This document shows, piece by piece, positions 7,391 through 63,417 of a stretch of DNA of 64,000 nt. The notes under the pieces are model-generated. The model was not told the DNA's origin. It did no database searches and worked only from the letters and a program-made list of their open reading frames with translations. The stretch is from the NCBI RefSeq assembly GCF_002775205.1, contig NC_036456.1, forward strand, positions 8,397,463 to 8,461,462, given 5' to 3'. The position numbers and the translations under genes are program-made. How positions within the stretch are numbered: the first letter of the stretch is position 1; each line of letters starts with the position of its first letter. The stretch is from Xiphophorus maculatus (taxonomy: Eukaryota > Chordata > Actinopteri > Cyprinodontiformes > Poeciliidae).

Positions 7391-7564
7391 TGCCTCCTGT
7401 GAAAATTACATTGATCTTTGCCAATACTTAATTGTAAGCTATTTTATAATGGTAACATCAACAATGTGTCTCCACTTATAAGGTTGAACTGAAGAGGAGA
7501 TTTTTTAATGGTTACAGTACAAAAAAACAACAACAAAAAAACGTGAGTAATTTGTGTGTTCCAC

Positions 7565-8010: not shown

Positions 8011-8494
8011 TTTGCTTTTTTCTCACTGGGATGTTGCAAACCTCAGATGTTTTGCATCTTCAGCTGATTAACATATGAACACAAATGTAAAAGTATAACA
8101 CTTTTGATTATTGCAGAGATATAACATTAATACACCTTTAGTTGCAAAAATGCTGCAAAAATGCCATCATCATCACAACATATAACAACAAAAATCGAAT
8201 GTTATGAGTCGAACTGTTGCAGAATAAACCAACAGAGTTATCCACAGCTTTTATTAACCTGAGAACAAACTGGAGCTTCTGTTGCTGCTGGACTCCAGTT
8301 TCCTGTTAATAGAGAAAGTTTTTTTTTACAAATCAACCTAACACTTCTGCTGGTGTAGTATGTCAGAAAATGTGTACTAGAAACATGTGCTGCTTAAAAC
8401 TTTAGTTAATTCTGTGTTACTGACACCAGATCTAGTGGAATCTGAGCCAGTATCAAGTGATGCACAAACACATGAATCCTGTGCAAATAATATC

Positions 8495-9749: not shown

Positions 9750-12700
9750 TCATGCTGAGCTGAAATTATCTGGTCTCACATTAACGTAAACAGAACCTTC
9801 TTCTGGATCAGGAGGTCTCTCTGGTAAAAGTGAAACATGGATACATAGAAAACATACATTAGTGTTTCTCCTCATATTTTTAAATAGTTTAATATCACTC
9901 TCTGAGTATTTGACAGCTGAGGATTGATCTGATTCACATGTAATCAGTCACCTTTAATAACTTGGTTGTTTTATTACATATATGTTACCTTTTCCAGTGG
10001 CTCCACGGTTATGGATTGTCTCATACACAGACGTGGTGCCTACAGTAAATATAAAAAATGTCAAAGAAAAGCTTGTATCTGAATGCAATTATGTAAAATA
10101 ATAAGATCTATTTTGTAGATGCTTAGATACTATGTTTATAATTTCTTTCCTGATGGAGATAATTGTGAGTTTGTTAAAACTTTGAATTGTTTTTATTAAT
10201 CAAACTCATGGTAATAATATTATTATATGTTGTCATACTGAGCAGCAGAACCATAATATCTGTAGATTAATTCTGACATAAAAATTAAGATCAGCAAACA
10301 AAATATTCAGGTGTTTCACTTTGTTGTTTTGTGTTTGTCAGAAGGAATGACTCTTAAAGTAGACACTTTGATATTTTTATACATTTTATAAAACTGTTTT
10401 ACTATGAAGAAAAAAGTTACAACAAAGTGATGTTATGTCCAAATTAATACTGATGTTTATTCTGTGACTAACCATGCAGCAGAAAGCTGTAATCACTTTC
10501 AGTCTGGTTCACTCCATGATTAGTGGTCGGCCTCTGGCTGCTGCTTTCAGACTGAAATGACCTAAAAATATTAAAGTGGATAAAATTTAACTATGAAACA
10601 AAGATCAAGAGTTTATGACTAAGATGAAAGAACAGATATTTCATTCTGACCTGATGCAGCTCAAATCTGGAGAAGATAAAAAAAAGCCATTTAGATCATC
10701 AACAACAGAATTAAAATGATGAACCGAATTTCAAAAGTCATATTTTAATACATGTGATTCAATAACACATTATTTCAGGTTAGAAGCAATAAAATGAGAA
10801 GAAAATGTTCTGACCTTTGGACCGTCTGCAGCGCCACAACAAGAGCAGGAGGACAATGAGAACGATTCCACTAACTGGTCCAACGATCAACATCACAGGA
10901 AATGAAGAGATGACAGGACTGGATACAGTTACTGGAAAAACAATAAATCATAAAACATTTATCTTAGTCCTCATTTTATTCAACAGCAACAGAAACATTT
11001 TATTAATGTCTTTTTTAAAATTACAAACTGCAGCTTTAACTTGATATTGTTAAATTGTGATTCTATGTATTGAAATAATAAAAAACATCTGTTCAGCTCA
11101 GAGGACAGATCTATCCCACCTGGTGGGTTTCATAGGGTGCAGGTCATTTATCTGACTTTTATTTGTATGATGCACAATATTGTAACTACTATTTTATTGT
11201 GTTTATATGTCTATAATTATAAGACATTCCTCTGGTAATTATCTTTCATTAGAGCCTCAGTGATGACTGTATGTTGAATCACTGAGGAGTTTCAGTCATT
11301 TGAAGTTTGTATATCAGACGTTGTCCAGTTGTTGTCCAGATGTGATATTTCTCAAATGAAACTTCACATTAAATATCTGGAGAACATAGAAAAACACCCA
11401 CACACATGAACATGTCCAAAAAAGATTTTTTTCTTTTTGCACAATTTTGATAAATTTTTAAATCCACAAACAGAATACTTAATTCTACATTTTCATTTTA
11501 TTGTCCAGTCCAAACATTCAACACTCAATGTTACATAGAAATAGACATGAAAAGTCTTGGCAGAGCAAAAAGTTTCTTATTTGTTTGTGTCACAAACTTA
11601 ATATCTGCATATTAATTACAGTTGAAGGATTTTTGACTGCAAAAATAAAAGTATATATAAATATTTTCACATCTTAATATAGAGACCAAGCTTTTGCATT
11701 TACTCCAAATGGTTCAAGAACAGCAGCAGCTTTAATTTGGTTAAACCTTTTCAGGCGTTTTTGATCATTTTGATGTGGCTGTTACAAACTGTGGTTATTG
11801 AGTGGTGAGGACGACGCGGTGGACCCAGGTTGTAGAGCAAATGATGATGGTTTTAATGAAGAAATCACAAAATACAAAGTCCAGGCAGCACAGGTGAGCA
11901 ATAAGGCAAAGAGCTCAAACACTGGACTCGAACGAGGGAAAGGTAGACGACACATGACTTTAGACTTTAGACTAGGACCAGACAGGGAAACACAGATGGG
12001 ATTAAATACACAGGGAAGGTAATCAGGGAACAATAGAGACAGCTGGGAGCAATCATGGCCAGAGAGACGGGAACTAAATTAACACACAGAGAATAAAACC
12101 ACATCCTCACAGTGGCCAGTTAGAAAATGTTTTACTTTAATTTTGCTGAAAAAAAGTTATCTACTGTTACTTTGAGGAAGTAGTGATGTAACTGTATCAG
12201 AGATCATAATATAAGAAACTAATATGAGCTTGAGTGAATATTGATGTTATTAAAGGAATCCTGCTGCATTTAGTTTTGCTGATCTATCCTCACAGTTCAG
12301 ACCAGGTCAAACAAACTTGGATCACAACAATGAGCTGCTTAATCTAAACAAAAAGACATTTAAAGAAAATAAATCTGACTAAAATAGTTCAACACTCAAC
12401 TTGTTAACTCCTAGAACTTTTCTGTTTTATTCTTTAGATAAAGAACAACTTTGGGAACAATGTGCACATAGCAGCACAAATTATAACAGTTGTGGTTTTA
12501 TTATTGTAACTTGCTAAAGGAAGTGAACAATAAAAATCAGCTCCTTTTTTTCTACAGATAAAAATTCATAACTCAGATTAGAACTAGTCAGATTTATTCT
12601 AGTCTGTCCAAGGAAGAAACTTAATTTATTCCAACATATCAGGAAAACATTTTTCTACAATCTGTTCAGAAAAACAAAACAATAAAATCACCTGTTATGG

Positions 12701-15700
12701 TTTCACTCCACTGTGTTGAAGAATACCAGTCATCTCTGCTTCTACACTGACACATGTAGTTTCCACTGCTGGACTCAGAGACATTGAAAGTCCAGTCTTT
12801 ACTGTCTGTCCAGTGTATTATTGACCCAGATCTCCTCCAGTCACACGTCCACTCAGTGGTTTCTCCTCCCTGGACCTCACATGTCAGAGTGATCGACTCA
12901 CCACTGAAGATATGAGGCCAGTTTGGTTGTCGAGTCACAAAAACCTTGTTGGAAACTGTTTACATCAGATAAGAAGAAAAACATTAAATCACATGAGAAA
13001 TATTAATTTCATGTATTTAGTTTCAAACAGTCTTAAAGAAAAAACTTACACATTATTTCAATGATGTTCTCATGGCTTGAATGACTGTAGAATGAGGGAT
13101 TTCCTCTCTTTCCATCACACTTATAGATTCCTCCTTGTGTCACAGTGATTTCTCTGTTTTCTTCATTATTTCTGCCGATTTCAACAAAAGAAGAATCTGA
13201 GGTCCGTCTGAACCATCTGTACTTCCATCCAGCAGAGGGCTCCACTGAGCAGCTCAGTGTCACACTGCCCCCTACTGGTATGGTTGTTGAACCTGCTGTC
13301 AGTTTGGCTCCAGGTTTATCTGCAGTTAACATGAATTAAAATTGGTTAATTTTTCAATAATTTAAAAAAACCATACAAGACTTGTACAAGTAGAACAAGC
13401 TACAGACTCGTTAACTGAAATAAATGATTAGATCGGGAAATTACTGAAAATATGTCAATAATGTAGAACTTCATTAATATGAATTATTCTGGTAGTTATT
13501 CATCGTTTCAGCCATACAGATTAACAACCAGCCTCTGATTATTGTGAGACTTTACAAAAGTAAACCTGATATAGAAACTTTTTCTAATAGAAAGTTTGAA
13601 TCAGTGTGTGTGTGTTTGTATGTGTGTGTGGGAGTTAAGCATTAATACTGACAACTCAACTAAGGACTAAATCAGCCACATTTTCATTTACAAGTGTCAA
13701 CTTACTTGATACAGAGAGTCTGATGGTTTCACTCCACTGTGTTGAAGAATACCAGTCATCTCTGCTTCTACACTGACACATGTAGTTTCCACTGCTGGAC
13801 TCAGAGACATTGAAAGTCCAGTCTTTACTGTCTGTCTTGTGTATTATTGACCCAGATTTCTTCCATTCACACGTCCACTCAGTGGTTTCTCCTCCCTGGA
13901 CCTCACATGTCAGAGTGATCGACTCACCACTGAACATCTGAGGCCAGATTGGTCGTCGAGTCACAAAAACCTTGTTGGAAACTGTTTACATCAGATATGG
14001 GCAGAAAAATTAAATCACATGAGAAATATTAATTTCATAGTTTTAGTTTCTAACAGTCTTTAAAAAAAACTTACACATTATTTCAATGATGTTCTCAAGG
14101 CTTGAATGACTGTAGAATGAGGGATTTCCTCTCTTTCCATCACACTTATAGATTCCTCTTTGTGTCACAGTGATTTCTCTGTTTTCTTCATTATTTCTGC
14201 TGAATTCAACAAAAGAAGTGTCTGAGGTCCGTCTGAACCATCTGTACTTCCATCCAGCAGAGGGCTTCACTGAGCAGCTCAGTGTCACACTGCCCCCTAC
14301 TGGTATGGTTGATGAACCTGCTGCCAGTTTGGCTCTGGGTTTATCTGATGTAATAAAAACAAATATTATTCGATTTTATATAAAACACTGCAATTAAAAG
14401 CTTATTGTAAAGAGTGATGGTTCTTTCAGAAAAGTAAATATGTGAAAAATCTGTAAATGCATTTTATTGTCATCTTTCCTTATAGATACTTTTTAGAAAG
14501 TAAAATAGAAAAAGAATTTATTTGAAATTGTTTCATTAAATAACATAAAAGAGTTTATTCTCTTTTATGAAAAGATAATGCGGTTAACTCTACAAATAAT
14601 AAAATCTATATATTCACATTAAGGTAAATAATATTTAGTTTGTTTTGTTGCTCTTTTTTTAACTTGTGGCTCACTTGACTTTATAAAAATTAAACCCAGT
14701 AATTATGTATGTGTCATATTTCAGACAATATTTTATCAACAAAAAAATCTGCTTGAAATAATGAAATAAAATAAAGTTAGAAAATGCATGTTTTTATAGG
14801 GCTGATATAAAACTTTGTAATTCTTTAAAATATTCAGGTCTTACCTGAGACAGTAACAGGGACAGTTTTACTGCAATTTTCGTCAGGTGAAACCCTCCAT
14901 TGACGACAGCACTGAAATTCACCACTATCACCAGTATACAGAGGACCAACTCTGAAACGTTTATCTGACTGAAAGCGATCAAATTCTTGACCATTCCTTA
15001 TTAACCGGTATTGACAGTCAGTGTCTCTTCCTTCATTCATGTCACAGATAAATGTAACAAACTCTCCAACATAAAAAGTCGACCAGTTGGGTTCAACAGT
15101 CAGAACAGGATCTATAACAGAACCAACATTCAGCAAGTTTGTCTTTTGATTTATAACAAAAACACATTAAGCTAAAAATTAAAGAAAAATACAGAATATT
15201 ATCTGATATAAAATATAAACTGAATTCTGTTCCTGAGAGGATAAATTATTAAAATACAGATTAAAAGTTGAATTTACCGAGAGTTTGTCCACAGCAGAGC
15301 AGTGTGTTCAGCACTGGAATAAAGGTTGAAAGTTCATCAGCATAAATTATAAATTAATTAAATTAAATCAAAAATATTTGCCAAATCCTCACACTGAGCT
15401 TTGACTCTGTTTACTTGTTAAATAAATGCAACTATTATAAATATATTGAGTTTTTATTTGTTCTGATAAGAATAAGATCAAATGTTTTAGTTTATTGTTG
15501 TTTTTCTGATGAGTTAAAACTTCATTTTATAAACTTCACATCCTGACTGAAGACAGAACATCTGCAGACGTTCTGCACGGCTACGGAAACTTCACACTCA
15601 TCTCTACTGGTAAAAAACTGATAAAAGTTTTTAATGAATAATTTAAGTTTCTTGTATCAGATCATGTTTCATTTTTCATCTTTGTTCTATAATATTTTCA

Positions 15701-16017
15701 TTTCTCCCACATTAGTTGTATGGGATATAAAGTTCTGTGCTAAAGTCAGATTTTACAATAAACAGCTTTTCAAAATGTTTGCACAGAAATGTTTGTGTTA
15801 GTAATTTGTCACTGAAATAACCTGTTTGAAGTTGCAGCAAACACATCAAGAACAAATGGTTATACTAAGTAAAGCTACACAAATACAATGGAAGATAAAG
15901 TAGATATTACAGCAGACAAGATGTCAAAGACGATGTTCTTCTAATCTGCATCATTCATACAGATAAAGTGATCTACTTACAGAGTGAGACCAGAACCCTG
16001 GGTGAGGTGTTCCCCAT
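9750..16017 (-). CDS. R1: five-Ig-domain inhibitory receptor, FcRL/LITR-like
   Basis: Predicted type I membrane receptor of about 587 residues. Twelve exons close in frame: 16017-15981 and 15313-15278 (signal peptide, MGNTSPRVLVSL then LLNTLLCCGQTL), 15111-14845 (D1), 14344-14075 (B), 13981-13706 (A), 13319-13050 (B), 12955-12692 (A), 10931-10815 (TM), 10666-10651, 10561-10473, 10039-9989 and 9820-9750. Ig exons are phase 1-1. D1 has extra cysteines (DTDCQYR, EFQCCRQW, DENCSK). B domains carry VTLSCSVEPSAGWKYRWF and GIYKCDG. A domains carry LTCEVQGG, EWTC and YMCQC, suggesting two disulphides. The TM segment (VMLIVGPVSGIVLIVLLLLL) ends in WRCRRSK with no charge inside. The tail has SDYSFL, SVYETI and SVYVNV, all ITIM-type, and YVNV also fits a Grb2-SH2 site. 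Binding of SHP-type phosphatases is inferred from the family. The ATG opens the leader. A possible 5' UTR acceptor precedes it at 16117. Relation to mammalian FCRL is by domain pattern only. Confidence 0.88.
11780..12111 (-). mobile_element. fossil solo LTR in R1 intron
   Basis: A 332-bp element bounded by tg...ca termini (tgttacaaac / atcctcaca) and flanked on both sides by the 5-bp duplication gtggc (11775-11779, 12112-12116). It has no internal genes, so it is a solo LTR. The same insertion with the same duplication is present at 17867-18217 and 31779-32132. It is therefore older than the duplication of this unit. It lies between the last Ig exon and the TM exon of R1. Confidence 0.75.
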
Positions 16018-18260: not shown

Positions 18261-18534
18261 GTTATCTACTGTTATTTGAGAAACATCCCTGAGTTTGACT
18301 AATAGTTCTTCAAATCACTTTCTCATTCTTATGTTCTTCACATTTTGTTAAATTGCAGTTTGTTGTGAAAATACAGCACAGGTAACATTAAGAAATAAAT
18401 TCTTCAAGCTAAAAAGACAACTAGAATAGCAGCATAAGGGAAATTGTTGATGTTAATAATGGAGGAGAAGATTTCCGTGGACTGAAATCCAACATCCAGT
18501 TTCTCCCATTTATTTTTCCCATCAAAACAAAAAA

Positions 18535-20508: not shown

Positions 20509-22106
20509 CTACATGGCAGAGTCGACGTGCAGAGCTGCTCCTGACCTGATGCCAGAATAAACCGTTTTATCTGTGGCTGCAGGACTTCCTGTAAACGAGA
20601 CGATGATGATGCACATTAGTTATGATAATAAACAACAACAACAACAATAACGCTACAACAACATGTCTTTACCTTTTTTCTTTCTATTGGCTCTAGCCTG
20701 GTGGTTGATCTCAGCATATGTTGGAGTGACTTCTACAACAGAAAACATTGAAATCATCAATCAGACAAACTAAAAATCTTCAGCTCTGTGTCTGATCTAT
20801 CGTTTTCTACTGGTGATGATATGCAGATGCTAATCATGACATAGCATGATTTTAAATCCATGTTGACCTGAGGACATTTTTCAGAACCAAGCCTGACAGC
20901 TTCCTGTTCTTACTGTCAAAGAAACAGCGCCATCCTCTGGTTCTAAAGGCCTTTATGGTGAGATTATCTCATGATAAACAAAATAAAAATTAAAAACCTA
21001 AAACCAGTGTCAGCTATTTGCTTACGTTGTACATTGTTTGTGTTTGGAAATAACTATTTAACTCAAAGTATTTCAGTTCATTCTGAGTTTATCTGCAGCT
21101 GAAACACATCTGGATTATTTATCAGTCGCTGATCCTCGTTAAATAACACAGTTGTTGCACTTTTAGCTGAATATAAAGTGAGAATCTAAAACAAAGAAAC
21201 CAATTATAAAACCCCTATTTACATAAGCTAGAAGAAACAAAAGCAATTTACCAGACAATTAATTTATTTGGGTATTGTCTTTCTTTATCATTTATTTGCT
21301 TATTTTTTATCTTTAATATTTTTCACTTCATGTAAAAATGAAACAAGATTCAATAGCGACATATAGGTTTAAGATCATAGAAATAATGTAAAAGAAATAA
21401 AAGTCTAAGAAAAATGTGAACACAATATAAGCAATAATTTTTATTAACTAAAACTTGTGGAGGTTCTAACCCTGAAGAGGAGAGCTGTATTCATGACCGC
21501 CAGCCTGGTTGACTCCATCATTTCTGCTGCTCTCTGAGGCCTTACATCTACAACATGAACAAGAAAAAATAGTCACTGAATTTAATACATTAATCAGCAA
21601 AAAAAATCTGCTATTAATTCAAATAAATTAAAATGTGAGGAACTGACCTGGAGCAGAATAAACCTGTGAAAAAGAGATTTGCAGCTACATTAACTGGAAA
21701 ATCGTTCTTATTTCTTTGTGTTATAAAATCATAGCAAATTTGTCACCAAGTAAAAACAAGCAAACAAAAAAAGGTCTCACCCTTGGACCGTCTGCAGAAA
21801 CACAACAAGACGAGGAGAATAATGAGAATAAATCCAACAACTGGTCCAGAGATCAGCAGCACAAGATGTGAAGAACTGGACACAGTTACTGGAAATAAGA
21901 AACATTAAGTGGAAACAAATTTTATTCACCTGAAAAAATGTTATTTCCATATTTAAACACATAAATCATGAAACATTTTATCTGTTCATGAACAAATGAC
22001 CTTGTTATTCCTTTACTCTCTCAGACTTATTTGATTCATTCATTGTTTGGTCAGACATAGTTTGAAAACTTTGTTGTCATTCATGACAAAAGGCAGAAAT
22101 TCTGTG

Positions 22107-22156
<50 letters not shown>

Positions 22157-25100
22157 TGCATTCAGTCTATGGTTACAAACAGGAGAAGTTAGGATGTTGA
22201 ACCAAATTTCTGTGAAGAAGAAATTGTTGATATTTCCTCACAGCTCAGACCAGGACGCAGCCAAACTTATATCACAACAAAGATCTACTTGATCTAAGCT
22301 AACCAAAAAGTAACTATAACGTGACTCTGACTAAAATAGTTTGACACTAAGTAATAAACTTTTTTTTAACTCCTAGAAGTTGTGTTTTATTAAAAAAGTC
22401 TTCTAGGACGAGGTGTACATAGAGGTTATCTTTATCATTTAACATTTAAAATTTGTTAAAAAAACAACAACAAACAAGAAATAAAATCACCTGTTATGGT
22501 TTCACTCCACTGTGTTGAAGAATACCAGTCATCTCTGCTTCTACACTGACACATGTAGTTTCCACTGCTGGACTCAGAGACATTGAAAGTCCAGTCTTTA
22601 CTGTCTGTCCACTGTATTATTGACCCAGATCTTCTCCATTCACACGTCCACTCAGTGGTTTCTCCTCCCTGGACCTCACATGTCAGAGTGATCGACTCAC
22701 CACTGAAGACAAGAGGCCAGTTTGGTTGTCGAGTCACAAAAACCTTGTTGGAAACTGTTTACATCAGATATGGGCAGAAAAATTAAATCACATGAGAATT
22801 ATTAATTTCATGGATTTAGTTTCTAACAGTCTTATAGAAAAAACTTACACATTATTTCAATGATGTTCTCATGGCTTGAATGACTGTAGAATGAGGGATT
22901 TCCTCTCTTTCCATCACACTTATAGATTCCTCCTTGTGTCACAGTGATTTCTCTGTTTTCTTCATTATTTGTGTTGAATTCAACAAAAGAAGTATCTGAG
23001 GTCCGCCTGAACCATCTGTACTTCCATCCAGCAGAGGGCTCCACTGAGCAGCTCAGTGTCACACTGCCCCCTACTGGTATGGTTGTTGAACCTGCAGCCA
23101 GTTTGGCTCCAGGTTTATCTGCAGTTAACATGAATTAAAATTGGTTAATTTTCAATAATTTAAAAAACATACAAAACTTGTAGCAGAACAAGCTACAGAC
23201 TCGTTAACTGAAAAAAATGAGCAGATCGAGAAATTACTGAAAATATGTCAACAATGTAGAACTTCATTAATATGAATTATTCTGGTAGTTATTCATCGTT
23301 TCAGCCATACAGATTAACAACCAGCCTCTGATTATTGTGAGACTTTACAAAAGTAAACCTGATATAGAAACTTTTTTCTAATAGAAAGTTTGAATCAGTG
23401 TGTGTGTGTTTGTATGTGTGTGTGGGAGTTAAGCATTAATACTGACAACTCAACTAAGGACTAAATCAGCCACATTTTCATTTACAAGTGTCAACTTACT
23501 TGATACAGACAGTCTGATGGTTTCACTCCACTGTGTTGAAGAATACCAGTCATCTCTGCTTCTACACTGACACATGTAGTTTCCACTGCTGGACTCAGAG
23601 ACATTGAAAGTCCAGTCTTTACTGTCTGTCTTGTGTATTATTGACCCAGATCTTCTCCATTCACACGTCCACTCAGTGGTTTCTCCTCCCTGGACCTCAC
23701 ATGTCAGAGTGATCGACTCACCACTGAACATCTGAGGCCAGATTGGTCGTCGAGTCACAAAAACCTTGTTGGAAACTGTTTACATCAGATATGGGCAGAA
23801 AAATTAAATCACATGAGAAATATTAATTTCATAGTTTTAGTTTCTAGCAGTCTTTAAAAAAAACTTACACATTATTTCAATGTTGTTCTCAAGGCTTGAA
23901 TGACTGTAGAATGAGGGATTTCCTCTCTCTCCATCACACTTATAGATTCCTCCTTGTGTCACAGTGATTTCTCTGTTTTCTTCATTATTTCTGCTGAATT
24001 CAACAAAAGAAGAATCTGAGGTCCGCCTGAACCATCTGTACTTCCATCCAGCAGAGGGCTCCACTGAGCAGCTCAGTGTCACACTGCCCCCTATTGGTAT
24101 GGTTGTTGAACCTGCTGCCAGTTTGGCTCTGGGTTTATCTGATGTAATAAAAACAAATATTATTCGATTTTATATAAAACACTGCAATTAAAAGCTTATT
24201 ATAAAGAGTGATGCTTCTTTCAGAAAAGTAAATATGTGAAAAATCTGTAAATGCATTTTATTGTCATCTTTCCTTATTATAGATACTTTTTAGAAAGTAA
24301 AATAGAAAAAGAATTTGTTTGAAATTGTTTCATTAAATAACATGAAAGAGTTTATTCTCTTTTATGAAAAGATAATGCGGTTAACTCTACAAATAATAAA
24401 ATCTATATATTCACATTAAGGTAAATAATATTTAGTTTGTTTTGTTGCTCTTTTTTTAACTTGTGGCTCACTTGACTTTATAAAAATCAAACCCAGTAAT
24501 TATGTATGTGTCATATTTCAGACAATATTTTATCAACAAAAAAATCTGCTTGAAATAATGAAATAAAATAAAGTTAGAAAATGCATGTTTTTTTAGCGCT
24601 GATATAAAACTTTGTAATTCTTTAAAATATTCAGGTCTTACCTGAGACAGTAACAGGGACAGTTTTACTGCAATTTTCGTCAGGTGAAACCCTCCATTGA
24701 CGACAGCACTGAAATTCACCACTATCACCAGTATACAGAGGACCAACTCTGAAACGTTTATCTGACTGAAAGCGATCAAATTCTTGACCATTCCTTAATA
24801 ACCGGTATTGACAGTCAGTGTTTCTTCCTTCATTCATGTCACAGATAAATGTAACAAACTCTCCAACATAAAAAGTCGACCAGTTGGGTTCAACAGTCAG
24901 CACAGGATCTATAACTGAAACAACATTCATCAAGTTTGTCTTTTGATTTATAACAAAAACACATCAAGCTAAAAATTAAAGAAAAATACAGAATAATATC
25001 TGATATAAAAGATAAACTGGATTCTGTTCCTGAGAAGATAAATGATTAAAATACAGATTAAAAGTTGAATTTACCGAGAGTTTGTCCACAGCAGAGCAGT

Positions 25101-25803
25101 GTGTTCAGCACTGAAATAAAGGTTGAAAGTTCATCAGCATAAATAATAAATTAATTAAATCAAAAATATTTGCCAAACTCTCAGCTTTGACTCTGTTTAC
25201 CTGTTAAATAAATGCAACTATTATAAATATATTGAGTTTTTATTTGTTCTGATAAGAATAAGATCAAATGTTTTAGTTTATTGTTGTTTTTCTGATGAGT
25301 TAAAACTTCATTTTATAAACTTCACATCCTGACTGAAGACAGAACATCTGCAGACGTTCTGCACGGCTACGGAAACTTCACACTCATCTCTACTGGTAAA
25401 AAACTGATAAAAGTTTTTAATGAAAAATTTAAGTCTCTTGTATCAGATCATGTTTCATTTTTCATCTTTGTTATATAATATTTTCATTGCTCCCACATTA
25501 GTTGTATGGGATATAAAGTTCTGTGCTAAAGTCTGATTTTACAATAAACAGCTTTTCAAAATGTTTGCACAGAAATGTTTGTGTTAGTAATTTGTCACTG
25601 AAATAACCTGTTTGAAGTTGCAGCAAACACATCAAGAACAAATGGTTATACTAAGTAAAGCTACACAAATACAATGGAAGATAAAGTAGATATTACAGCA
25701 GACAAGATGTCAAAGACGATGTTCTTCTAATCTGCATCATTCATACAGATAAAGTGATCTACTTACAGAGTGAGACCAGAACCCTGGGTGAGGTGTTCCC
25801 CAT
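20509..25803 (-). CDS. R2: five-Ig receptor with a different TM/tail lineage
   Basis: About 582 residues in twelve exons that close in frame: 25803-25767, 25110-25075 (signal peptide as in R1), 24908-24642 (D1), 24138-23869 (B), 23775-23500 (A), 23118-22849 (B), 22754-22491 (A), 21888-21781 (TM), 21663-21648, 21547-21471, 20732-20673 and 20576-20509. D1 differs from that of R1 at only two residues that I can find (RNTD for RDTD, RLL for RLI). The TM exon (HLVLLISGPVVGFILIILLV) and tail are strongly diverged from R1/R3. Tail tyrosines sit in HEYSSPL (not an ITIM), PTYAEI (ITIM-like) and TVYSGI (fits the ITSM core TxYxxI). The last two exons have exactly the lengths (60 and 68 nt) of those of R5. 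The terminal exon has two in-frame acceptors 6 nt apart. Signalling is probably inhibitory or switch-like, by analogy only. Confidence 0.86.
22111..22153. repeat. (TA)n microsatellite in R2 intron
   Basis: About 21 uninterrupted TA units in the intron between the TM exon and the last Ig exon of R2. R1 and R3 have no such run in the matching intron. Confidence 0.95.
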
Positions 25804-28800
25804 CCTGACCTCAACCTGGAACCATGTGTTGCTCTGCTTTGGTCCAATAATCTTCCTTTCATAACATGCTGCCTCTGCAACGTCTCTAGAGAAATGGAGC
25901 CGTCTGAAACAGGATCAACGTTTTATCTGAGAATGACGGGACAACGTTTATTTTAAACACTGACATCACTGCACTGAGTTTCTGCTGTGATGTTTCCGCT
26001 CCAATGATGACAAGTTGTGGTAAATGAAGCACAGGACTTTTTTTTCTTTTTTTTTTACAAACGAGTTAATAAAAAATAAAATCTATAGATAAGCTTCTTC
26101 TGCCTTTTTTAAACCATAACATAAAATTCACTTTGAATCAACTGTAAACAGCATTATTGTAACACATGAATAGTTTAAGTGTTTAATTCACTACTTGGTT
26201 TGTGTTGCGTGCGAACTCTCTGGCAAACAAACCATAAAATCCCCTTTTCATCTAAAAACAAGTGATGGTGAGAATGATCTCACCTATCACAGATATATAA
26301 GGTCTTAGGTGTGAATAAACAGACATGAGATCAGACAGTGTGAAATAGTTTGGAGTTTAAATAGATTTAAGAAGAAACTCTAAAAATGTACGGAGAGTGA
26401 AAAAAAGTTTCTGTGTTTCATTTAGCAGCGTCTGTTTGTGAGACAGGAAGAAGGATGGAAAATCTTATTTTCAGCAGAATAATCCTCTAACAATGACATC
26501 AGTCAAACCTACACCATACACTGACCTTTAATCTGATCCTAACTTTAGCCTCATCTACAATATGTCATATACAGTGTTGTATAGTAACGAAGTAAAACTA
26601 CTTCACTACTTTACTTAAGTATATTTTGGAGTACTTCATACTTTCCTCGAGTATGAAAATTTTTGAATACTTTCACTTTTACTTCACTATATTTCCAAAC
26701 TTAATCGCATACTTTTACTCCGATACATTTTCAATGTGTGGTTTAGTTACTCGTTACAAAAAAGCGAGAGAGAGAAACGCAAGTGTTTTGACCCCACCTA
26801 CTGATTGACTGCAACAACGTCCGTAGCCTGCTTGCCTGGGCTTGTTCATCACCACCAATAGGATAAACCTGTTTCGCTTCTCCCATTAAACACAAAGCAA
26901 GTCTCGCAATCAGCAGCAGCCACATGGAGGAGGAGACGGAACTGCGTCGGACACGGCTCCAGGGGAACCACCAGCTGGTGATGAGAGCCCATGGCCTTAT
27001 TTAAACACAATATACTCTTTCGTGGGTGTTAAAGATTCGTCGTACCGCATGAAGTGTATGTTATTCCTGCCCAAAGATGTGGAAATTCTATCTTACAAAA
27101 ACTCCCCGTCCAACTTGAAGAAACACATCGAGGTAACGTCTTATGAAATGGTTATAATCCTCCTGTTTCAGTAACTATAGCTTGGTCACTAGACACTACT
27201 GTATTGTGAAATCTTGACCATAAATGAACTTTGTTTGGCATTGTTTCAGTTCCACACGTGGTGTATTTAGCTTAGGCCTAATGTTGACTGTAGCAGGTTA
27301 CCTAGACTCCTCTGTTCAAGGGGGGACAGAAGCCATAGCGATAGCAATTTAGACTAAATTTAGCGAATATAGGAAAGGCATGCAAGTTCAAAACCACAAA
27401 CCATTAACATGTGCTACTCTTTAAAACTGGAACAATTTATTAGCAGGTTTAATTTTGCCTGCACTTGGTTGTGTACATTATTTTAAGTGTATTTGACAAG
27501 TTTACCAAAATATAAAAAAAGTCATTCAAACTGCATTTGCCTTGTTTTACTTTTTACTTGTACTTTTCATTACATTACTTGAGTACATCCATTTTTACAG
27601 TAATTTCTATACTTAAGTACAAGAAGTTTCAGATACTTTAAGACTTTAACTCAAGTAACATTTCAGTCAGTGACTTGGACTTTTACCAAAGTCGTATTTT
27701 GGAGAGGTACCTATACTTTTACTTGACTCTGAGATGTCAGTACTTTATACAACACTGGTCATATATTAATTTCTTAGCTCAGCGCAAAGAAGCCGTTAGC
27801 AGCTCTGCTAACCCAGCACGGGTGTTGGCTGTGAGGTCATGGAAAAGCATTTGGTTTTCTGATGTTACTTAATTTGCAGTTTTCTATACTAAATATTTCA
27901 CTTTAGTCCAGATCTTCCACCAAGAGATGAGGAAACATTACAGAGTGTCCTGCAGAAACTCTATAAATACAATTGCAAATGTGCTGAGCTTCATCTTCAG
28001 TGACATCCTGCTCAAGAAGTGTTGACCAAAGAAGCAGAAGTTCTCTATAATGGTATGACGACTCAGCACTGCCCTCTTGTGGCAGGCTTTTGAATCCAGA
28101 CTGCAGGCCATTGTTTCAGAGTTTAGGTCTGGCACTTCTTTCCTGGTGTTTTAATCTAAATTGTTTATTCAACTGAATCTAAAAATTGTCCCATTTATTC
28201 TAGTTTCAGAAGAAATAATATGTGTTTCAAGACTCTCTGAATTGTTGTTTGTGCTAAGCTAACATGGTTGTTGCAGCTGCAGACAGCAACTGTGTTTTCA
28301 GTGAGGATGAGGATGTTGAGCTTGATGATGGATGTGTGAGATGTTCTGCTGCCGTTTCCACCACAGCCAATCAGACTGGATGGATCAGGTTCATGTGAAG
28401 CAGCAGAATCCTGCAGACACACAAGTTTTCTTCCTGGATGGATCACCGGACATTCAGCCATTTTCTGGAACTCTGACAGAAATGACTACTTAATAGCACC
28501 ATCTGCTGGCCACTATCTGTAAGCACAAGTCACTGACAGAAGAAGTCTGGTGGGATTTTTGTTTTTTCCCACCAAGATTCACAGATTAAATAAATAATGT
28601 TCACTGTTGTTAACAGGACATGAAGTAAAACACACTTTTCTTTTCTGTTTTTTCTTGTTAATATATTACTTTGCATAACTGAAAATTGCATTTTAATTGA
28701 TTTTGTATCAGGTATTGTATCTCCAACTGCTACTCCACTGTTTTAATTTCGCAACTCTCTAAAAATAACAATATTGTAAAAAATGAATTGATGTTTCTTT

Positions 28801-29756: not shown

Positions 29757-32700
29757 TCATGCTGAGCTGTAATTATCTGGTCTCACATTAACGTAAACAG
29801 AACCTTCTTCTGGATCAGGAGGTCTCTCTGGTAAAAGTGAAACATGGATACATAGAAAACATACATTAGTGTTTCTCCTCATATTTTTAAATAGTTTAAT
29901 ATCACTCTCTGAGTATTTGACAGCTGAGGATTGATCTGATTCACATGTAATCAGTCACCTTTAATAACTTGGTTGTTTTAGTACAAATACGTTACCTTTT
30001 CCAGTGGCTCCACGGTTATGGATTGTCTCATACACAGACGTGGTGCCTACAGTAAATATAAAATATGTCAAAGAAAAGCTTGTATCTGAATGCAATTATG
30101 TAAAATAATAAGATCTATTTTGTAGATGCTTAGATATTATGTTTATCATTTCATTCCTGATGGAGATAATTGTGAGTTTGTTACAACTTTGAATTGTTTT
30201 TCTTAATCAAACTCATAGTAATAATATAATTATATGTTGTCATACTGAGCAGCAGAACCATAATATCTGTAGATTAATTCTGACATAAAAATTAAGCTCA
30301 GCAAATAAAATATTCAGGTGTTTCACTTTGTTGTTTTGTGTTTGTCAGAAGGAATGACTCTTAAAGTAGACACTTTGATATTGTTATACATTTTATAATA
30401 CGGTGTTATGATGAAGAAAAAAGTTACAACAAAGTGATGTTATGTCCAAATTAATGCTGATGTTTATTCTGTGACTAACCATGCAGCAGAAAGCTGTAAT
30501 CACTTTCAGTCTGGTTCACTCCATGATTAGTGGTCGGCCTCTGGCTGCTGCTTTCAGACTGAAATGACCTAAAAATATTAAAGTGGATAAAATTTAACTA
30601 TGAAACAAAGATCAAGAGTTTATGACTAAGATGAAAGAACAGATATTTCATTCTGACCTGATGCAGCTCAAATCTGGAGAAGATAAAAAAAAGCCATTTA
30701 GATCATCAACAACAGAATTAAAATGTTGAACCGAATTTCAAAAGTCATATTTTAATACATGTGATTCAATAACACATTATTTCAGGTTAGAAGCAATAAA
30801 ATGAGAAGAAAATGTTCTGACCTTTGGACCGTCTGCAGCGCCACAACAAGAGCAGGAGGACAATGAGAACGATTCCACTAACTGGTCCAACGATCAACAT
30901 CACAGGAAATGAAGAGATGACAGGACTGGATACAGTTACTGGAAACACAATAAATCATAAAACATTTAATTTAGTCCTCATTTTATTCAACAGCAACAGA
31001 AACATTTTATTAATGTGTTTATTAAAATTACAAACTGCAGCTTTAACTTGATATTGTTAAATTGTGATTCTATGTAATGAAAAAAACAAACATCTGTTCA
31101 TCTCAGAGGACAGATCTATCCCACCTGGTGGGTTTAATAGGGTGCAAGTCATTTTACTGACTTTTATTTGCATAATGCACAATATTGTAACTACTATTTT
31201 ATTGTGTTTATATGTCTATAATTATAAGACATTCCTCTGGTTATTATCTTTCATTAGAGCCTCAGTGATGACTGTATGTTGAATCACTGAGGAGTTTCAG
31301 TCATTTGAAGTTTATATATCAGACGTTGTCCAGTTGTTGTCCAGATGTGATATTTCTCAAATGAAACTTCACATTTAATATCTGGAGAACATAGAAAAAC
31401 ACCCACACACATGAACATGTCCAAAAATTATTATTTTTTTGCATTTTGATTAATTTTTAAATCCACAAACAGAATACTTAATTCTACATTTTCATTTCAT
31501 TGTCCAGTCCAAACATTCAACACTCAATGTTACATAGAAATAGACATGAAAAATCTTGGCAAAGCAAAAAGTTTCTTATTTGTTTGTGTCACAAACTTAA
31601 TATCTGCATATTAATTACAGTTGAAGGATTTTTGACTGCAATAATAAAAATAAATATAAATATTTTGAAATCTTAATGTAGAGACCAAGCTTTTGCATTT
31701 ACTCCAAATGGTTCAAGAACAGCAGCAGCTTTAATTTGGTTAAACCTTTTCAGGCGTTTTTGATCATTTTGATGTGGCTGTTACAAACTGTGGTTATTGA
31801 GTGGTGAGGACGACGTGGTGGACCCAGGTTGTAGAGCAAATGATGATGGTTTTAATGAAGAAATCACAAAATACAAAGTCCAGGCAGCACAGGTGAGCAA
31901 TAAGGCAAAGAGCTCAAACACTGGGAGCAACTGGAATACAAACTGGACTCGAACGAGGGAAAGGTAGACGACACATGACTTTAGACTTTAGACTAGGACC
32001 CGACAGGGAAACACAGATGAGATTAAATACACAGGGAAGGTAATCAGGGAACAATAGAGACAGCTGGGAGCAATAATGGCCAGAGAGATGGGAACTAAAT
32101 TAACACACAGAGAATAAAACCACATCCTCACAGTGGCCAGTTAGAACATGTTTTACTTTAATTTTGCTGAAAAAAAGTTATCTACTGTTATTTTGAGGAA
32201 GTAGTGATGTAACTGTATCAGAGATCATAATATCATAAGAAACTAATATGAGCTTGAGTGAATATTGATGTTATTAAATGAATCCTGCTGCATTTAGTTT
32301 TGCTGATCTATCCTCACAGTTCAGACCAGGTCAAACAAACTTGGATCACAACAATGAGCTGCTTAATCTAAACAAAAAGATATTTAAAGAAAATAAATCT
32401 GACTGAAATAGTTCAACACTCAACTTGTTAACTCCTAGAAGTTTTCTGTTTTATTCTTTAGATAAAGAACAACTTTGGGAACAATGTGCACATAGCAGCA
32501 CAAATTATAACAGTTGTGGTTTTATTATTGTAACTTGTTAAAGGAAGTGAACAATAAAAATCAGCTCCTTTTTTTCTGCAGATAAAAATTCATAACTCAA
32601 ATTAGAACTAGTCAGATTTATTCTAGTCTGTCCAAGGAAGAAACTTCATATAATCCAACATATGAGGAAAACATTTTTTCTACAATCTGTTCAGAAAAAA

Positions 32701-35700
32701 ACAACAATTAAATCACCTGTTATGGTTTCACTCCACTGTGTTGAAGAATACCAGTCATCTCTGCTTCTACACTGACACATGTAGTTTCCACTGCTGGACT
32801 CAGAGACATTGAAAGTCCAGTCTTTATTGTCTGTCTTGTGTATTATTGACCCAGATCTCCTCCAGTCACACGTCCACTCAGTGGTTTCTCCTCCCTGGAC
32901 CTCACATGTCAGAGTGATCGACTCACCACTGAAGATATGAGGCCAGTTTGGTTGTCGAGTCACAAAAACCTTGTTGGAAACTGTTTACATCAGATATGGG
33001 CAGAAAAATTAAATCACATGAGAAATATTAATTTCAGAGTTTCAGTTTCTAACAGTCTTAAAGAAAAAACTTACACATTATTTCAATGATGTTCTCAAGG
33101 CTTGAATGACTGTAGAATGAGGGATTTCCTCTCTTTCCATCACACTTATAGATTCCTCCTTGTGTCACAGTGATTTCTCTGTTTTCTTCATTATTTCTGC
33201 TGAATTCAACAAAAGAAGAATCTGAGGTCCGTCTGAACCATCTGTACTTCCATCCAGCAGAGGGCTCCACTGAGCAGCTCAGTGTCACACTGCCCCCTAC
33301 TGGTATGGTTGATGAACCTGCTGCCAGTTTGGCTCTGGGTTTAGCACCTGTTAACATGAATTAAAATTGGTTAAGTTTTTCAATAATTTAAAAAAAAACA
33401 TACAAGACATGTACAAGCAGAACAAGCTACAGACTCGTTAACTGAAATAAATGAGTAGATCAGGAAATTACTGAAAATATGTCAACAATGTAGAACTTCA
33501 TTAATATGAATTATTCTGGTAGTTATTCATCGTTTCAGCCATACAGATTAACAACCAGCCTCTGATTATTGTGAGACTTCACAAAAGTAAATCTGACATA
33601 GAAACTTTTTCTAATAGAAAGTTTGAATCAGTGTGTGTGTGTTTGTATGTTTGTCACTTTGACCGGCAGAGGCTCTGCGTTTCAAGAAGGAAGTGAGGCA
33701 ACAAATGTCTTTGAGGTGGATTTATTTGGGAGCTCCAAATCTTCATTACACCAGCACTCTCTCTTAGTGAAACAAAGAAGCTGACATTTATACCTGAGGC
33801 AAGTTCCAACACTTACACCAGGTAAAGGGGTGATCCAAAAAGAAAAGACAAACAAACACTACTTACACAAACCTAACAACAAATGATCCAACAAATATTT
33901 ACATGCATGCAAATTATTAAAATTAAACTAATCTAAAGTCAATCAAAAGTAAATATAACTAAATATAAATCATCAGAGTATTCCCCCTCTTAATGGAAGT
34001 TGGTATGCTCCAGGAGCATTCGTCTCCCTCTCTGATCCACCTTGCTGAGACACACCCAGAAAGGCAAATACTCAATTAACTCAAATTGAACTAATCTAAA
34101 TCAAAACGAACTGACATTTCCCCCTCTCTCCCACATTCTCCGAACAGGAAAGATGGCCAGTCTCCCCCCCACAAAGAATGTTCACCAAATGTCACAATAT
34201 AACTAAACAAAAACTACTACAAACACATTTGAACTGAAAACAACATAATATCAATAATCAACATGGGATGGAACCCATGGTCTCCATCACAGTGTGTGTG
34301 GGAATTAAGCATTAATACTGACAACTCAACTATGGACTAAATCAGCCACATTTTCATTTACAAGTGTCAACTTACTTGATACAGACAGTCTGATGGTTTC
34401 ACTCCACTGTGTTGAAGAATACCAGTCATCTCTGCTTCTACACTGACATGTGTAGTTTCCACTGCTGGACTCAGAGACATTGAAAGTCCAGTCTTTACTG
34501 TCTGTCCACTGTATTATTGACCCAGATCTCCTCCATTCACACGTCCACTCAGTGGTTTCTCCTCCCTGGACCTCACATGTCAGAGTGATCGACTCACCAC
34601 TGAACATCTGAGGCCAGTTTGGTTGTCGAGTCACAAAAACCTTGTTGGAAACTGTTTACATCAGATATGGGCAGAAAAATTAAATCACATGAGAATTTTT
34701 TATTTCATAGTTTTAGTTTCTAAAAGTCTTAAAGAAAAAACTTACACATTATTTCAATGATGTTCTCAAGGCTTGAATGACTGTATAATGAGGGATTTCC
34801 TCTCTCTCCATCACACTTATAGATTCCTCCTTGTGTCACAGTGATTTCTCTGTTTTCTTCATTATTTCTGCTGAATTCAACAAAAGAAGAATCTGAGGTC
34901 CGTCTGAACCATCTGTACTTCCATCCAGCAGAGGGCTCCACTGAGCAGCTCAGTGTCACACTGCCCCCTACTGGTATGGTTGATGAACCTGCTGATAGTT
35001 TGGCTCCAGGTTTAGCTGCAGATAACATGAATTAAAATTGGTTAATTTTTCTATAATAAAAAAAACAAACAAGACTTGTACAAGCAGAACAAGCTACAGA
35101 CTCGTTAACTGAAATAAATGAGTAGATCAGAAAATTACTGAAAATATGTCAACAATGTAGAACTTCATTAATATGAATTATTCTGGTAGTTATTCATCGT
35201 TTCAGCCATACAGATTAACAACCAGCCTCTGATTATTGTGAGACTTTACAAACGTAAACCTGATATAGAAACTTTTTCTAATAGAAAGTTTGAATCAGTG
35301 TGTGTGTGTTTGTATGTGTGTGTGGGAGTTAAGCATTAATACTGACAACTCAACTATGGACTAAATCAGCCACATTTTCATTTACAAGTGTCAACTTACT
35401 TGATACAGACAGTGTGATGGTTTCACTCCACTGTGTTGAAGAATACCAGTCATCTCTGCTTCTACACTGACACATGTAGTTTCCACTGCTGGACTCAGAG
35501 ACATTGAAAGTCCAGTCTTTACTGTCTGTCTTGTGTATTATTGACCCAGATGTCCTCCATTCACACGTCCACTCAGTGGTTTCTCCTCCCTGGACCTCAC
35601 ATGTCAGAGTGATCGACTCACCACTGAACATCTGAGGCCAGTTTGGTCGTCGAGTCACAAAAACCTTGTTGGAAACTGTTTACATCAGATAAGAAGAGAA

Positions 35701-37701
35701 AACTGAAATCACAGGAGAATTTTTAATGTCATAGTTCTAGTTTCTAATAGTCTTAAAGAAAAAACTTACACATTATTTCAATGATGTTCTCATGGCTTGA
35801 ATGACTGTAGAATGAGGGATTTCCTCTCTTTCCATCACACTTATAGATTCCTCCTTGTGTCACAGTGATTTCTCTGTTTTCTTCATTATTTCTGCTGAAT
35901 TCAACAAAAGAAGAATCTGAGGTCCGTCTGAACCATCTGTACTTCCATCCAGCAGAGGGCTCCACTGAGCAGCTCAGTGTCACACTGCCCCCTACTGGTA
36001 TGGTTGTTGAACCTGCTGTCAATGTGGCCGTGGGTTTATCTGATGTTAGAAAATCAAATATTATTTGATTTGTCATAAAATACTGCAATTAAAAGCTTAT
36101 TGTAAAGAGTGATGCTTCTTTCAGATAAAAAATATGTGAAAAAGCTGTAAATGCATTTTATTGTCATCTTTGCTTATTATAGATACTTATTAGAAATTAA
36201 TAAAGAAAAAGAATTTGTTTGAAATTGTTTCATTAAATAACATGAAAGAGTTCATTCTCATTTCTGAAAAGATAATGTGGTTATCTTTACAAATAAGCAA
36301 ATCTATATATTCACATTAAGGTAAATAATATTTCCTTTGTTTTATTGCTCTTTTTTAAACTTGTGGCTCACTTAAATTTTAAAAAGTTAAACCCAGTAAT
36401 TATGTTTGTTTCATATTTCAGACACTAATTTATCAACAAAAAAATCTACTTGAAATAATGAAATAAAATACATTTAGCAAATACATGTTTTTTAGGGCTG
36501 ATATAAAACTTTGTAATTCTTTAAAATATTCAGGTCTTACCTGAGACAGTAATAGTGACACTTTTACTGCACTTTGAGTCAGATGAACCCGTCCAGTTAC
36601 CACAGCAATGAAATTCACCACTATAACCAGTAAACAGAGGACCAACTCTGAAACGTTTATCTGACTGATAGAGATAAATTTCTTGACCATTCCTCATTAA
36701 CTTGTAGATCCAGTCAGTGTCTCTTCCTTCATTCATGTCACAGATAAATGTAACAAACTCTCCATCATAAAAATTCAACCAGTTGGGTTCAACAGTCAGC
36801 ACAGGATCTATAAAGAACCAACATTCAGCAAGTTTGTCTTTTGATTTATAACAAAAACACATCAAGATAAAATTTACTGAAAAATACAGAATAATATCTG
36901 ATATAAAATATAAACTGAATTCTGTTCCTGAGAGGACAAATGATTAAAATACAGATTAAAAGTTGAATTTACCGAGAGTTTGTCCACAGCAGAGCAGTGT
37001 GTTCAGCACTGAAATAAAGGTTGAAAGTTCATCAGCATAAATAATAAATTAATTAAATCAAAAATATTTGCCAAACTCTCAGCTTTGACTCTGTTTACCT
37101 GTTAAATAAATGCAACTATTATAAATATATTGAGTTTTTATTTGTTCTGATAAGAATAAGATCAAATGTTTTAGTTTATTGTTGTTTTTCTGATGAGTTA
37201 AAACTTCATTTTATAAACTTCACATCCTGACTGAAGACAGAACATCTGCAGACGTTCTGCACGGCTACGGAAACTTCACACTCATCTCTACTGGTAAAAA
37301 ACTGATAAAAGTTTTTAATGAATAATTTAAGTTTCTTGTATCAGATCATGTTTCATTTTTCATCTTTGTTCTATAATATTTTCATTTCTCCCACATTAGT
37401 TGTATGGGATATAAAGTTCTGTGCTAAAGTCAGATTTTACAATAAACAGCTTTTCAAAATGTTTGCACAGAAATGTTTGTGTTAGTAATTTGTCACTGAA
37501 ATAACCTGTTTGAAGTTGCAGCAAACACATCAAGAACAAATGGTTATACTAAGTAAAGCTACACAAATACAATGGAAGATAAAGTAGATATTACAGCAGA
37601 CAAGATGTCAAAGACGATGTTCTTCTAATCTGCATCATTCATACAGATAAAGTGATCTACTTACAGAGTGAGACCAAAACCCTGGGTGAGGTGTTCCCCA
37701 T
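29757..37701 (-). CDS. R3: seven-Ig-domain inhibitory receptor, FcRL/LITR-like
   Basis: About 770 residues in fourteen exons that close in frame: 37701-37665, 37008-36973 (signal peptide), 36807-36541 (D1), then three B-A pairs: 36039-35770 and 35675-35400; 35015-34746 and 34651-34376; 33347-33075 and 32980-32717. These are followed by 30938-30822 (TM), 30673-30658, 30568-30480, 30046-29996 and 29827-29757. It equals R1 plus one extra B-A pair. Its D1 departs clearly from R1/R2 (DWIYKLMRNGQEIYLYQ, FHCCGNWTGSSDSKCSK). The third B exon uses a shifted acceptor and is one codon longer (273 nt). The tail repeats the three R1 motifs SDYSFL, SVYETI and SVYVNV. One conservative change near the end gives DNYSS for DNFSS, adding a tyrosine. 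A solo LTR sits in the intron between the second A and third B exons. Role inferred as for R1. Confidence 0.87.
31779..32132 (-). mobile_element. fossil solo LTR in R3 intron
   Basis: Same insertion as in R1 and in the orphan intron, flanked by gtggc on both sides (31774-31778, 32133-32137), between the TM exon and the last Ig exon. Confidence 0.75.
33652..34291 (-). mobile_element. fossil solo LTR, R3-specific
   Basis: A 640-bp insertion that splits the (TG)n tract of an R3 intron. The equivalent introns at 13600-13640, 23395-23425 and 35300-35325 lack it. Its ends are tgtcactttgacc and tctccatcaca. Read on the minus strand it has a TATAAA box followed about 70 bases later by an AATAAA signal, as expected of an LTR. 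Flanking target duplication cannot be resolved in the TG repeat. No internal genes, so a solo LTR. It is younger than the B-A cassette duplications. Confidence 0.7.
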
Positions 37702-51269: not shown

Positions 51270-51910
51270 ATATCGTCTTTCATTTGGAGTCTTTATTGCC
51301 ATGTATGTATCTTTTGGATCAACTAAAAAACATCTTTTAGCAACTTTAAACTAAACCTGCTTTTAATGGACAATATTTTACATATTGAGATCTGTAAAAT
51401 GTGTGCTGGTTGTCTGCAGGAAGGTGGCGTCCAGGCAGTAATGGACGCTCCAGTTTTTTCTACAATCAGGAGCAGCTGCCATGCAGGCTTCAGGCTTGTT
51501 TGTTCTGCAACACTTAAATGAACCAGATTTATAACACGTGAAAAGTTAAAACATATTCATCACTGGTTGTGATGCTGAGTGTAGTTCTGCCAGTTTAATG
51601 TGCTAATGGTTTATTGTTTTTATGTTTACAGAAATAACATGGTGAGTTTCCTAAAGAAGTACTGTAGATGTAGATAAGCTAAAGAGCCACAACAGAATCT
51701 TTGCAGGATTCGAATGAAAGTTATAAACTATTTTTACTCATTTGTAGATTTTGCTGAATTTGCCATAAATTCAAGACTGTAAGCTTTAGTGCTGTGCAAT
51801 TGTCTTCAGAGATAACGTGTCAACGACTATGTGTTGTAGTATGTAAAACATCACTGAGAATGTTTAAAAAAATGTTTATCCCCCAAGAGATTGAAATCAG
51901 AGGGGGGAAG

Positions 51911-63379: not shown

Positions 63380-63417
63380 CTTGTAATAAACTGCAGGAAA
63401 AACTCAGAGCCTGCAGC

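Follow-up and report, generated by a model that had tools for sequence, protein, structure and literature searches.

Two signalling-tail classes on one outer part, probably maintained by recurrent gene conversion, in a tandem immunoglobulin receptor family of the platyfish Xiphophorus maculatus

Introduction

The closest described counterparts of the platyfish locus considered here are mammalian receptor families in which members with different signalling tails have similar outer parts. The locus comprises R1, R2, and R3, three tandem minus-strand genes of a single multi-immunoglobulin (Ig) family, within a 64,000-nucleotide (nt) window of Xiphophorus maculatus DNA (contig NC_036456.1, positions 8,397,463 to 8,461,462), the coordinates of which are used below. 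Mammalian CEACAM1 and the CEACAMs that bear an immunoreceptor tyrosine-based activation motif (ITAM) are described as having related ligand-binding domains that are apparently kept alike by gene conversion or recombination, with a ligand-binding domain that diversifies and gene numbers that are species-specific (PMC2832619). The likeness to the platyfish genes lies in closely related ligand-binding domains on ITAM and (here, predicted) inhibitory receptors, although the CEACAMs belong to another Ig family and the mammals to another vertebrate class, and in the platyfish 14 copies appear to form one pool with a common border at an exon edge. Primate Siglec-11 and Siglec-16 are described as paired inhibitory and activating receptors whose outer parts are alike through repeated gene conversion (PMC5701461), as is probable for the platyfish genes; however, they form a single pair, whose members are reported to bind glycans similarly and to be expressed in the same cells. 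For primate CD300A and CD300C, evidence is given that conversion has kept the outer domains similar although signalling has diverged (PMC12447643). Similar outer domains with divergent tails are also found in the platyfish, but CD300A and CD300C are a single primate pair, while the platyfish genes are multi-Ig genes related many to many. In these accounts, the maintenance of activating and inhibitory pairs by conversion is a known process in mammals.

In fish, the teleost IpLITRs, some of them stimulatory and others inhibitory, are described as distant kin of FcR, FcRL, and LILR (PMC4810170). The platyfish genes likewise encode teleost Ig receptors of the FcR/FcRL/LILR kind, a likeness of kind to the catfish LITRs, and the main text of that review contains no occurrence of 'paired' or 'shuffl'. 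The Atlantic salmon NILTs are a clustered Ig multigene family with ITAM-bearing members or members bearing an immunoreceptor tyrosine-based inhibition motif (ITIM) in salmonids (PMC3022915), and are similar to the platyfish set in these respects; they differ in having one or two V-type Ig domains, and the abstract holds no shared-pool analysis. Searches of the open-licence literature, judged by titles and the opening parts of abstracts, listed no receptor family of teleosts in which outer parts are homogenised between tail classes. The platyfish evidence for conversion-maintained pairs is unusually clean.

A shared border at the edge of the last Ig exon

The most probable explanation of the locus is that two old tail classes are carried on one outer part, whose copies would be homogenised by repeated gene conversion as far as the last Ig exon. 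Conversion would run through the alignable 5′ half of the genes and stop where the introns have become too diverged to pair. A first-pass annotation of the window had read R2 more narrowly, as a chimera in which an outer part of R1 type was joined by gene conversion or a crossover to a transmembrane (TM) segment and tail of unrelated lineage. The R2 exon model contains 586 codons with an intact frame and encodes five Ig domains, a TM segment, and a tail; the predicted platyfish protein P0001 (588 amino acids) is 100% identical to this model, with two additional residues at one splice site. The frame of R1 is also intact, and its counterpart is the predicted platyfish protein P0004, while R3 is represented by the database protein P0006 together with single exons. 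Genes with an R1-type tail are referred to as class A and genes with an R2-type tail as class B. The features of the outer part are as follows.

20509..25803, minus strand: R2 coding span, with five Ig domains, TM segment, and R2-type tail (exon model, match to P0001)
24642..24908, minus strand: R2 D1 exon, first Ig domain, 98.9% identical to R1 (exon model, identity)
23500..24138, minus strand: R2 Da1 and Db1 exons (Ig 2 and 3), including the intron between them (exon model)
22849..23118, minus strand: last Da exon of R2 (Ig 4; exon model)
22491..22754, minus strand: last Db exon of R2 (Ig 5), the final homogenised exon (exon model, cross-class identity)
22472..22490, minus strand: border, the start of the intron, where class A diverges from class B, at about +12 (alignments)
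23400..24900, minus strand: approximate R1-R2 conversion tract holding all 18 private sites (two alignments scanned, last Ig pair outside)
9750..16017, minus strand: R1 coding span, with an outer part common with R2 and an R1-type ITAM tail (exon model, identity, motifs)
14845..15111, minus strand: R1 D1 exon (exon model)
29757..37701, minus strand: R3 coding span, with seven Ig exons, an R1-type tail, and a D1 nearest that of the class B gene L031 (identity, tree)
36541..36807, minus strand: R3 D1 exon, 94.4% identical to L031 and 88.8% to R1 (identity)

The near identity of R1 and R2 from the last Ig exon through the 5′ flank, which the first-pass annotation had claimed, is borne out at 97.35% over 4,118 nt (12672-16785 against 22472-26571), and D1 differs at 3 of 267 nt. 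Windows of 200 columns are 93.8-100% identical from about 17.44 to about 12.64 kb of R1 (the R2 insertion described below and the two outermost 5′ windows, at 71.6 and 85.2%, being excluded from this range), after which identity falls to 89.5% across the border, then to 58-76%, and then to about 37-51%. The sharp drop had been placed at about 22484, which is correct to within a few bases, as R1 and R2 part about 12 nt inside the intron that follows the last Ig exon. R1 and R3, by contrast, remain 97-100% alike through the tail: the intron after the last Ig exon is 96.9% identical between R1 and R3 (85% in its first 20 nt) versus 53.5% between R1 and R2, and the stretch from the TM exon to the Y1 exon is 99.8% versus 59.6% identical. 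The TM and tail of R2 are indeed diverged, but the TM exons of the two types share 80.6% nt identity, indicating that the R2 tail is an old paralogue and not unrelated sequence.

The border is not private to R2, and this part of the chimera claim does not hold, although R2 does carry a homogenised outer part on a different tail. At least 14 family copies are present in the platyfish genome, ten with an R1-type tail and four with an R2-type tail (identity cut-offs of 96% and 94%, respectively); these counts are lower bounds, more distant tails of 66-86% identity are also present beyond the cut-offs, and six of the ten R1-type tails were matched over 855 of 1,191 nt. A genome search with D1 returned at least 43 matches, 14 of which span the whole query (83-100%), one for each tail by position. 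The R2-type tails are those of R2, L029, L030, and L031 (94-96%), all on the main contig and with the same structure, and R2 is collinear with the other three across both outer part and tail (91.9-97.7% in long pieces). Identity breaks at one exon edge in 32 of 32 cross-class pairs, formed by the four R2-type genes and the eight R1-type genes with a full last Ig exon (L052 and L053 lack a full one and were excluded from this part of the comparison), and the position of the border is constant within a few bases in the nine genes shown. Genes of different classes are 96.8% identical both in the 5′ flank and in the last Ig exon, but 53.8% identical over the following 100 nt (47.7-57.0 over the 32 pairs); within classes, those 100 nt are 97.4% (R1-type) and 89.4% (R2-type) identical. 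The R2-type TM exon is 99.1-100% identical among the four class B genes and about 80% identical to the R1 type.

The 5′ flank of R2 also contains a 1.2 kb insertion (26571-27758) whose termini read CAGTGTTGTATA / TATACAACACTG; eight bases, TATATGAC, are duplicated, and the insertion is absent from R1, R3, and L029-L031. Its structure resembles that of a hAT-type DNA transposon.

One pool of outer parts across two tail classes

Upstream of the border, no fixed class differences and 134 shared polymorphisms are found in 2,727 gap-free columns from five segments, whereas the region from TM to Y1 holds 128 fixed differences and no shared polymorphisms in 398 columns. These counts compare five of the ten class A genes (R1, R3, L053, L054, and L057, of which L054 and L057 are near-copies and L053 is missing in the last Ig pair) with all four class B genes. 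In the distance, tree, and private-site analyses, class A consisted of R1, R3, L053, and L054, L057 substituting for L053 where the last Ig pair was analysed; none of the four analyses included L052, L055, L056, L058, or L059. Between-class distance in the upstream half is 4.6% versus 4.9% within classes (64 of 70 label permutations are as large), and in the last Ig pair 4.4% versus 4.1% (10 of 70), while in the tail it is 40.1% versus 2.4% (2 of 70, the minimum).

The trees point in the same direction. Upstream, R1 groups with R2 (support 100/100) and R3 with L031 (100/99), both pairs being cross-class, and a class B clade is rejected by the approximately unbiased (AU) test for the upstream half (p 1e-8) and for D1 alone (p 6e-7). 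The tail of R2 groups instead with two R2-type tails from Poecilia (100/99), which is the discordance between outer part and tail that the first-pass annotation had anticipated. Over-long runs of agreement occur in 14 of 28 gene pairs, nine of them cross-class (uncorrected p < 0.05). Conservation of the exons by selection alone is set aside, because cross-class similarity in the introns and 5′ flank is almost as high as in the exons.

Probable conversion tracts and the evolution of D1

R1 and R2 share 14 private sites in the upstream alignment and four more in the first Ig pair, all at about 23.4-24.9 kb, with none at about 24.9-26.5 kb. The recent part of the likeness of R1 and R2 is consequently a tract of about 1.5 kb that covers the first Ig domain and the Ig pair following it, with both ends inside the gene, as gene conversion would leave; what is specific to R1 and R2 is this tract and not the break at about 22.48 kb. 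The three genes R1, R2, and R3 stand at much the same distance from one another in the last Ig pair, with 12, 12, and 11 sites specific to a pair. R3 and L031 share 11 private sites in the upstream alignment, all at about 24.3-24.9 kb, and one in the first Ig pair, centred on D1 and the intron behind it. The same-class pairs R2-L029, R2-L030, and R2-L031 share two, one, and no private sites, none of which is in D1. Tracts that end within the gene are found together with discordant outer-part and tail trees, the pattern of a gene-conversion family.

D1 is also the fast-changing domain. Among seven intact genes, the nonsynonymous rate (dN) in D1 is 0.148 and the synonymous rate (dS) 0.045, a ratio of 3.3, with dN <= dS in none of 2,000 codon bootstraps; the ratio in six genes is 1.0 for the last Da exon and 2.0 for the last Db exon (dN <= dS in 9% of bootstraps). 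Positive selection on D1 is likely, not proven. The X. hellerii protein P0002 combines a D1 of the R1/R2 type with an R1-type tail, which hints that this D1 came from the ITAM class.

Family identity

Five Ig_2 stretches were identified in the R2 protein by domain search. The best solved relative is FcRL5 (E 1e-21); FcRL4 and Fc gamma RI come next and LILRB1 lower in the ranking, and FcRL5 scores above both LILRB1 and LILRB3. The tandem, related Ig domains identify R2 as an FcR/FcRL/LILR-like Ig receptor, of the teleost LITR kind. LILRB3-like is a database name for the predicted protein and is no evidence of orthology.

Tail exons, motifs, and predicted signalling

The exons of the two tail types, together with those of R5, are listed here.

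21781..21888, minus strand: R2-type TM exon (exon model)
21648..21663, minus strand: R2 16-nt exon (exon model)
21471..21547, minus strand: R2 Y1 exon, ending in HEYSSPLQ, with Pro where an ITAM needs Leu or Ile (exon model, motifs)
20673..20732, minus strand: R2 Y4 exon (60 nt), EVTPTYAEINHQARANRKKK, identical in all four R2-type genes (exon model, motifs)
20509..20588, minus strand: R2 Y5 exon including the stop, with TVYSGI, which resembles an immunoreceptor tyrosine-based switch motif (ITSM; exon model, motifs)
10473..10931, minus strand: R1 TM, short, and Y1 exons, with the first ITAM tyrosine (exon model, motifs)
9989..10039, minus strand: R1 Y2 exon, with the second ITAM tyrosine; YSFLLHGTTSVYETI spans Y1-Y2 (exon model, motifs)
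9750..9820, minus strand: R1 Y3 exon (SVYVNV) including the stop (exon model, motifs)
49408..50247, plus strand: R5 TM to Y3 exons, with the ITAM YSSLLQGDTPLYEKI, nearer the R1 type (exon search, tail tree, motifs)

The tails were compared with the consensus sequences of the ITAM, ITIM, and ITSM. The R1-type tail contains an ITAM, YSFLLHGTTSVYETI, as well as SVYVNV, and is thus equipped with an activating motif. The R2-type tail reads HEYSSPLQ-EVTPTYAEI followed by KTVYSGI; a motif scan of this tail found neither an ITAM nor a strict ITIM, leaving the tyrosine of YAEI and that of the one ITSM-like site, TVYSGI. R1 and R2 have near-identical outer parts (D1, 98.9%) on different tails (TM to Y1, 59.6%), which is the arrangement of paired receptors. 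A tract that carries D1 across classes would leave two genes, one with an ITAM and one of the R2 type, that share a binding tip, and, because D1 is the fast-changing domain, such copying would yield paired receptors with the same tip and different, likely opposite, outputs. R1 and R2 are accordingly predicted to be paired receptors with different and perhaps opposite signals.

It is quite possible, if not the reading we favour, that the R2 tail has no inhibitory role and instead gives a weak signal or acts via a different partner, so that R1 and R2 would differ in strength and not in sign. This would suit a tail with a single ITSM-like site in place of a strict ITIM, and the R1 tail itself has ITIM-pattern tyrosines besides its ITAM. 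Against this, the Y4 peptide is identical and the Y5 peptide nearly identical in all four R2-type genes, and cichlid tail exons that by eye look homologous to Y4 and Y5 contain two strict ITIMs, LLYAEV and VVYSEV.

The R2-type tail is older than the genus, as shown by its identity of 85% to P. mexicana P0019 and 92% to P. latipinna P0029 (partial) and by the clade that it forms with these two Poecilia tails. The Xiphophorus and Gambusia R1-type tails stand apart with the same support, the deeper forks of this tree (built without P0020 and P0092) being weak (63/87). A protein search with the R2 tail returned six proteins, namely two forms of R2, P0019, P0029, a fragment from Gambusia, and the platyfish model P0092, which has an R2-type TM and a D1 equal to that of L031.

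Relic exons and a possible dual tail

Matches to exons of one tail class lie beside or within genes of the other.

8233..8309, minus strand: relic of an R2-type Y5 exon 3′ of the R1 stop (score 40, 0 of 200 shuffles)
51412..51502 (about), plus strand: relic of an R2-type Y5 exon behind R5 (score 37, 0 of 200 shuffles)
20904..20959, minus strand: possible relic of an R1-type Y3 exon in an R2 tail intron (score 36, 0 of 200 shuffles, largest shuffle 33)

The Y3 relic in the R2 tail intron is indicated more weakly than the two Y5 relics. Local matching found no relic of the 60-nt Y4 exon of R2 at R5 (score 23, 88 of 200 shuffles) or downstream of R1, and none of the R1 Y2 exon in the R2 tail intron. 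The first-pass annotation had given the last two R2 tail exons as 60 and 68 nt, matching R5; they measure 60 and 80 nt (stop included), and only the last has a counterpart at R5. R5 is set aside as the source of the R2 tail, since its TM and ITAM exons are nearer the R1 type and Y5 alone has a counterpart there.

The relic exons would fit an older dual tail split between the two classes, in which Y2 and Y3, the ITAM exons, were kept by one class and the ITIM-like Y4 and Y5 by the other. By eye, certain fish tails seem to combine both motif sets in a single protein. The fuller proposal, in which an ancestral dual-signal tail was divided by reciprocal exon decay and conversion with a fixed border shuffles a positively selected D1 between ITAM and ITIM/ITSM classes, is tentative, and we would give it less than an even chance.

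The Y3 exon of R5 ends in a splice donor (CCAG/GTAA) at 50248, where R1 (9769) and R3 (29776) read CCAGATAA and run into the stop. This donor change may have shortened the tails of R1 and R3.

Alternative explanations

Unequal crossing-over with loss (birth and death), acting in place of gene conversion, is unlikely, although it accounts for several features of the locus. The genes are tandem with one to three Ig pairs each, homology extends through the 5′ flank, and an orphan copy of that flank at 7561-8026 (98.5% identical to that of R3, with no gene-body match after it) is a probable remnant of a lost gene copy; given the varying Ig pairs and this flank, unequal crossing-over acts as well. 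However, the D1 tracts, with 5′ likeness at the family average and no private sites beyond about 23.4 kb, fit conversion better, and a stretch of about 530 kb that includes further members of the family separates R3 from L031.

A single ancient fusion, which gave both tail classes the same outer part before the genes multiplied and was followed by no exchange, would explain the constancy of the border but is improbable. Such a history is set aside on the counts of fixed and shared sites upstream and on the two cross-class tree pairs, and the tracts bounded within the gene and the over-long cross-class runs of agreement also stand against it. A single recent chimera, with one crossover at about 22.48 kb that placed an R1-type outer part on the old tail of R2, is rather more doubtful still. 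The sharp step at the exon edge and the 97.4% identity of R1 and R2 upstream are what it would produce, but it is largely refuted by the break common to L029-L031, which are collinear with R2 through outer part and tail, by the end of the R1-R2 private sites within the gene at about 24.9 and 23.4 kb, and by the equal distances among R1, R2, and R3 in the last Ig pair. Assembly of R2 from collapsed or mis-joined copies, for which near-identical tandem genes and the two R1-type copies on small contigs give some occasion, is hardly credible in view of four R2-type loci of the same structure on the main contig, R2-type tails in predicted proteins of two Poecilia species, and an intact R2 frame.

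Several observations nevertheless weigh against recurrent conversion across two tail classes and the signalling roles attached to it. The case for a shared pool is weaker in the last Ig pair, in which class monophyly is not rejected (DNA, AU p 0.086), nor is it for the last Db protein domain with Poecilia sequences included (p 0.114). Support in the Db protein trees across species is poor, and the Db of P0029, a Poecilia R2-type protein, adjoins the Xiphophorus Dbs, so that cross-species discordance of the outer part is weak. The scan for private sites covered only eight of 28 gene pairs in the upstream half, and four gene pairs in the first Ig pair. Among the ten R1-type copies, six (L054-L059, at C14 8994500-9085699 and, for two copies, on the small separate contigs C66 and C77) look like near-copies; the two that were translated, L054 and L057, have a stop codon in D1, and L057 also loses frame. 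The six could be pseudogenes, or haplotypes that the assembly contains twice. Positive selection on D1 is no more than likely because recombination among genes can disturb dN/dS, and the suggestion that D1 was first on an ITAM tail draws on the single X. hellerii protein. Finally, the inhibitory role predicted for the R2 tail, which lacks a strict ITIM, is based on one ITSM-like site and on the ITIMs of cichlid exons whose homology is judged by eye, and signalling by R1 and R2 is a prediction made from their sequences.

Other features of the window

A repeat of about 630 bp occurs at 11564-12179, 17651-18283, and 31561-32193 (92.8-96% in matched pairs), within tail introns of R1 and R3 and beside the 5′ flank of R1. 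A second repeat of 1 kb (94%) is located near the window ends, at 330-1337 and 62372-63382. A V-set-like Ig reading frame at 1533-1937 (plus strand) appears, by eye, to be butyrophilin/MOG-like.

Implications

For paired receptors, the question is how partners keep one specificity while the binding domain is driven to change. With a border fixed within a few bases, tails that are sorted, outer parts that are mixed, and two cross-class D1 pairs, this question becomes testable in the platyfish family. If the locus is modular in the manner proposed here, each new binding tip would soon exist in both activating and inhibitory versions.

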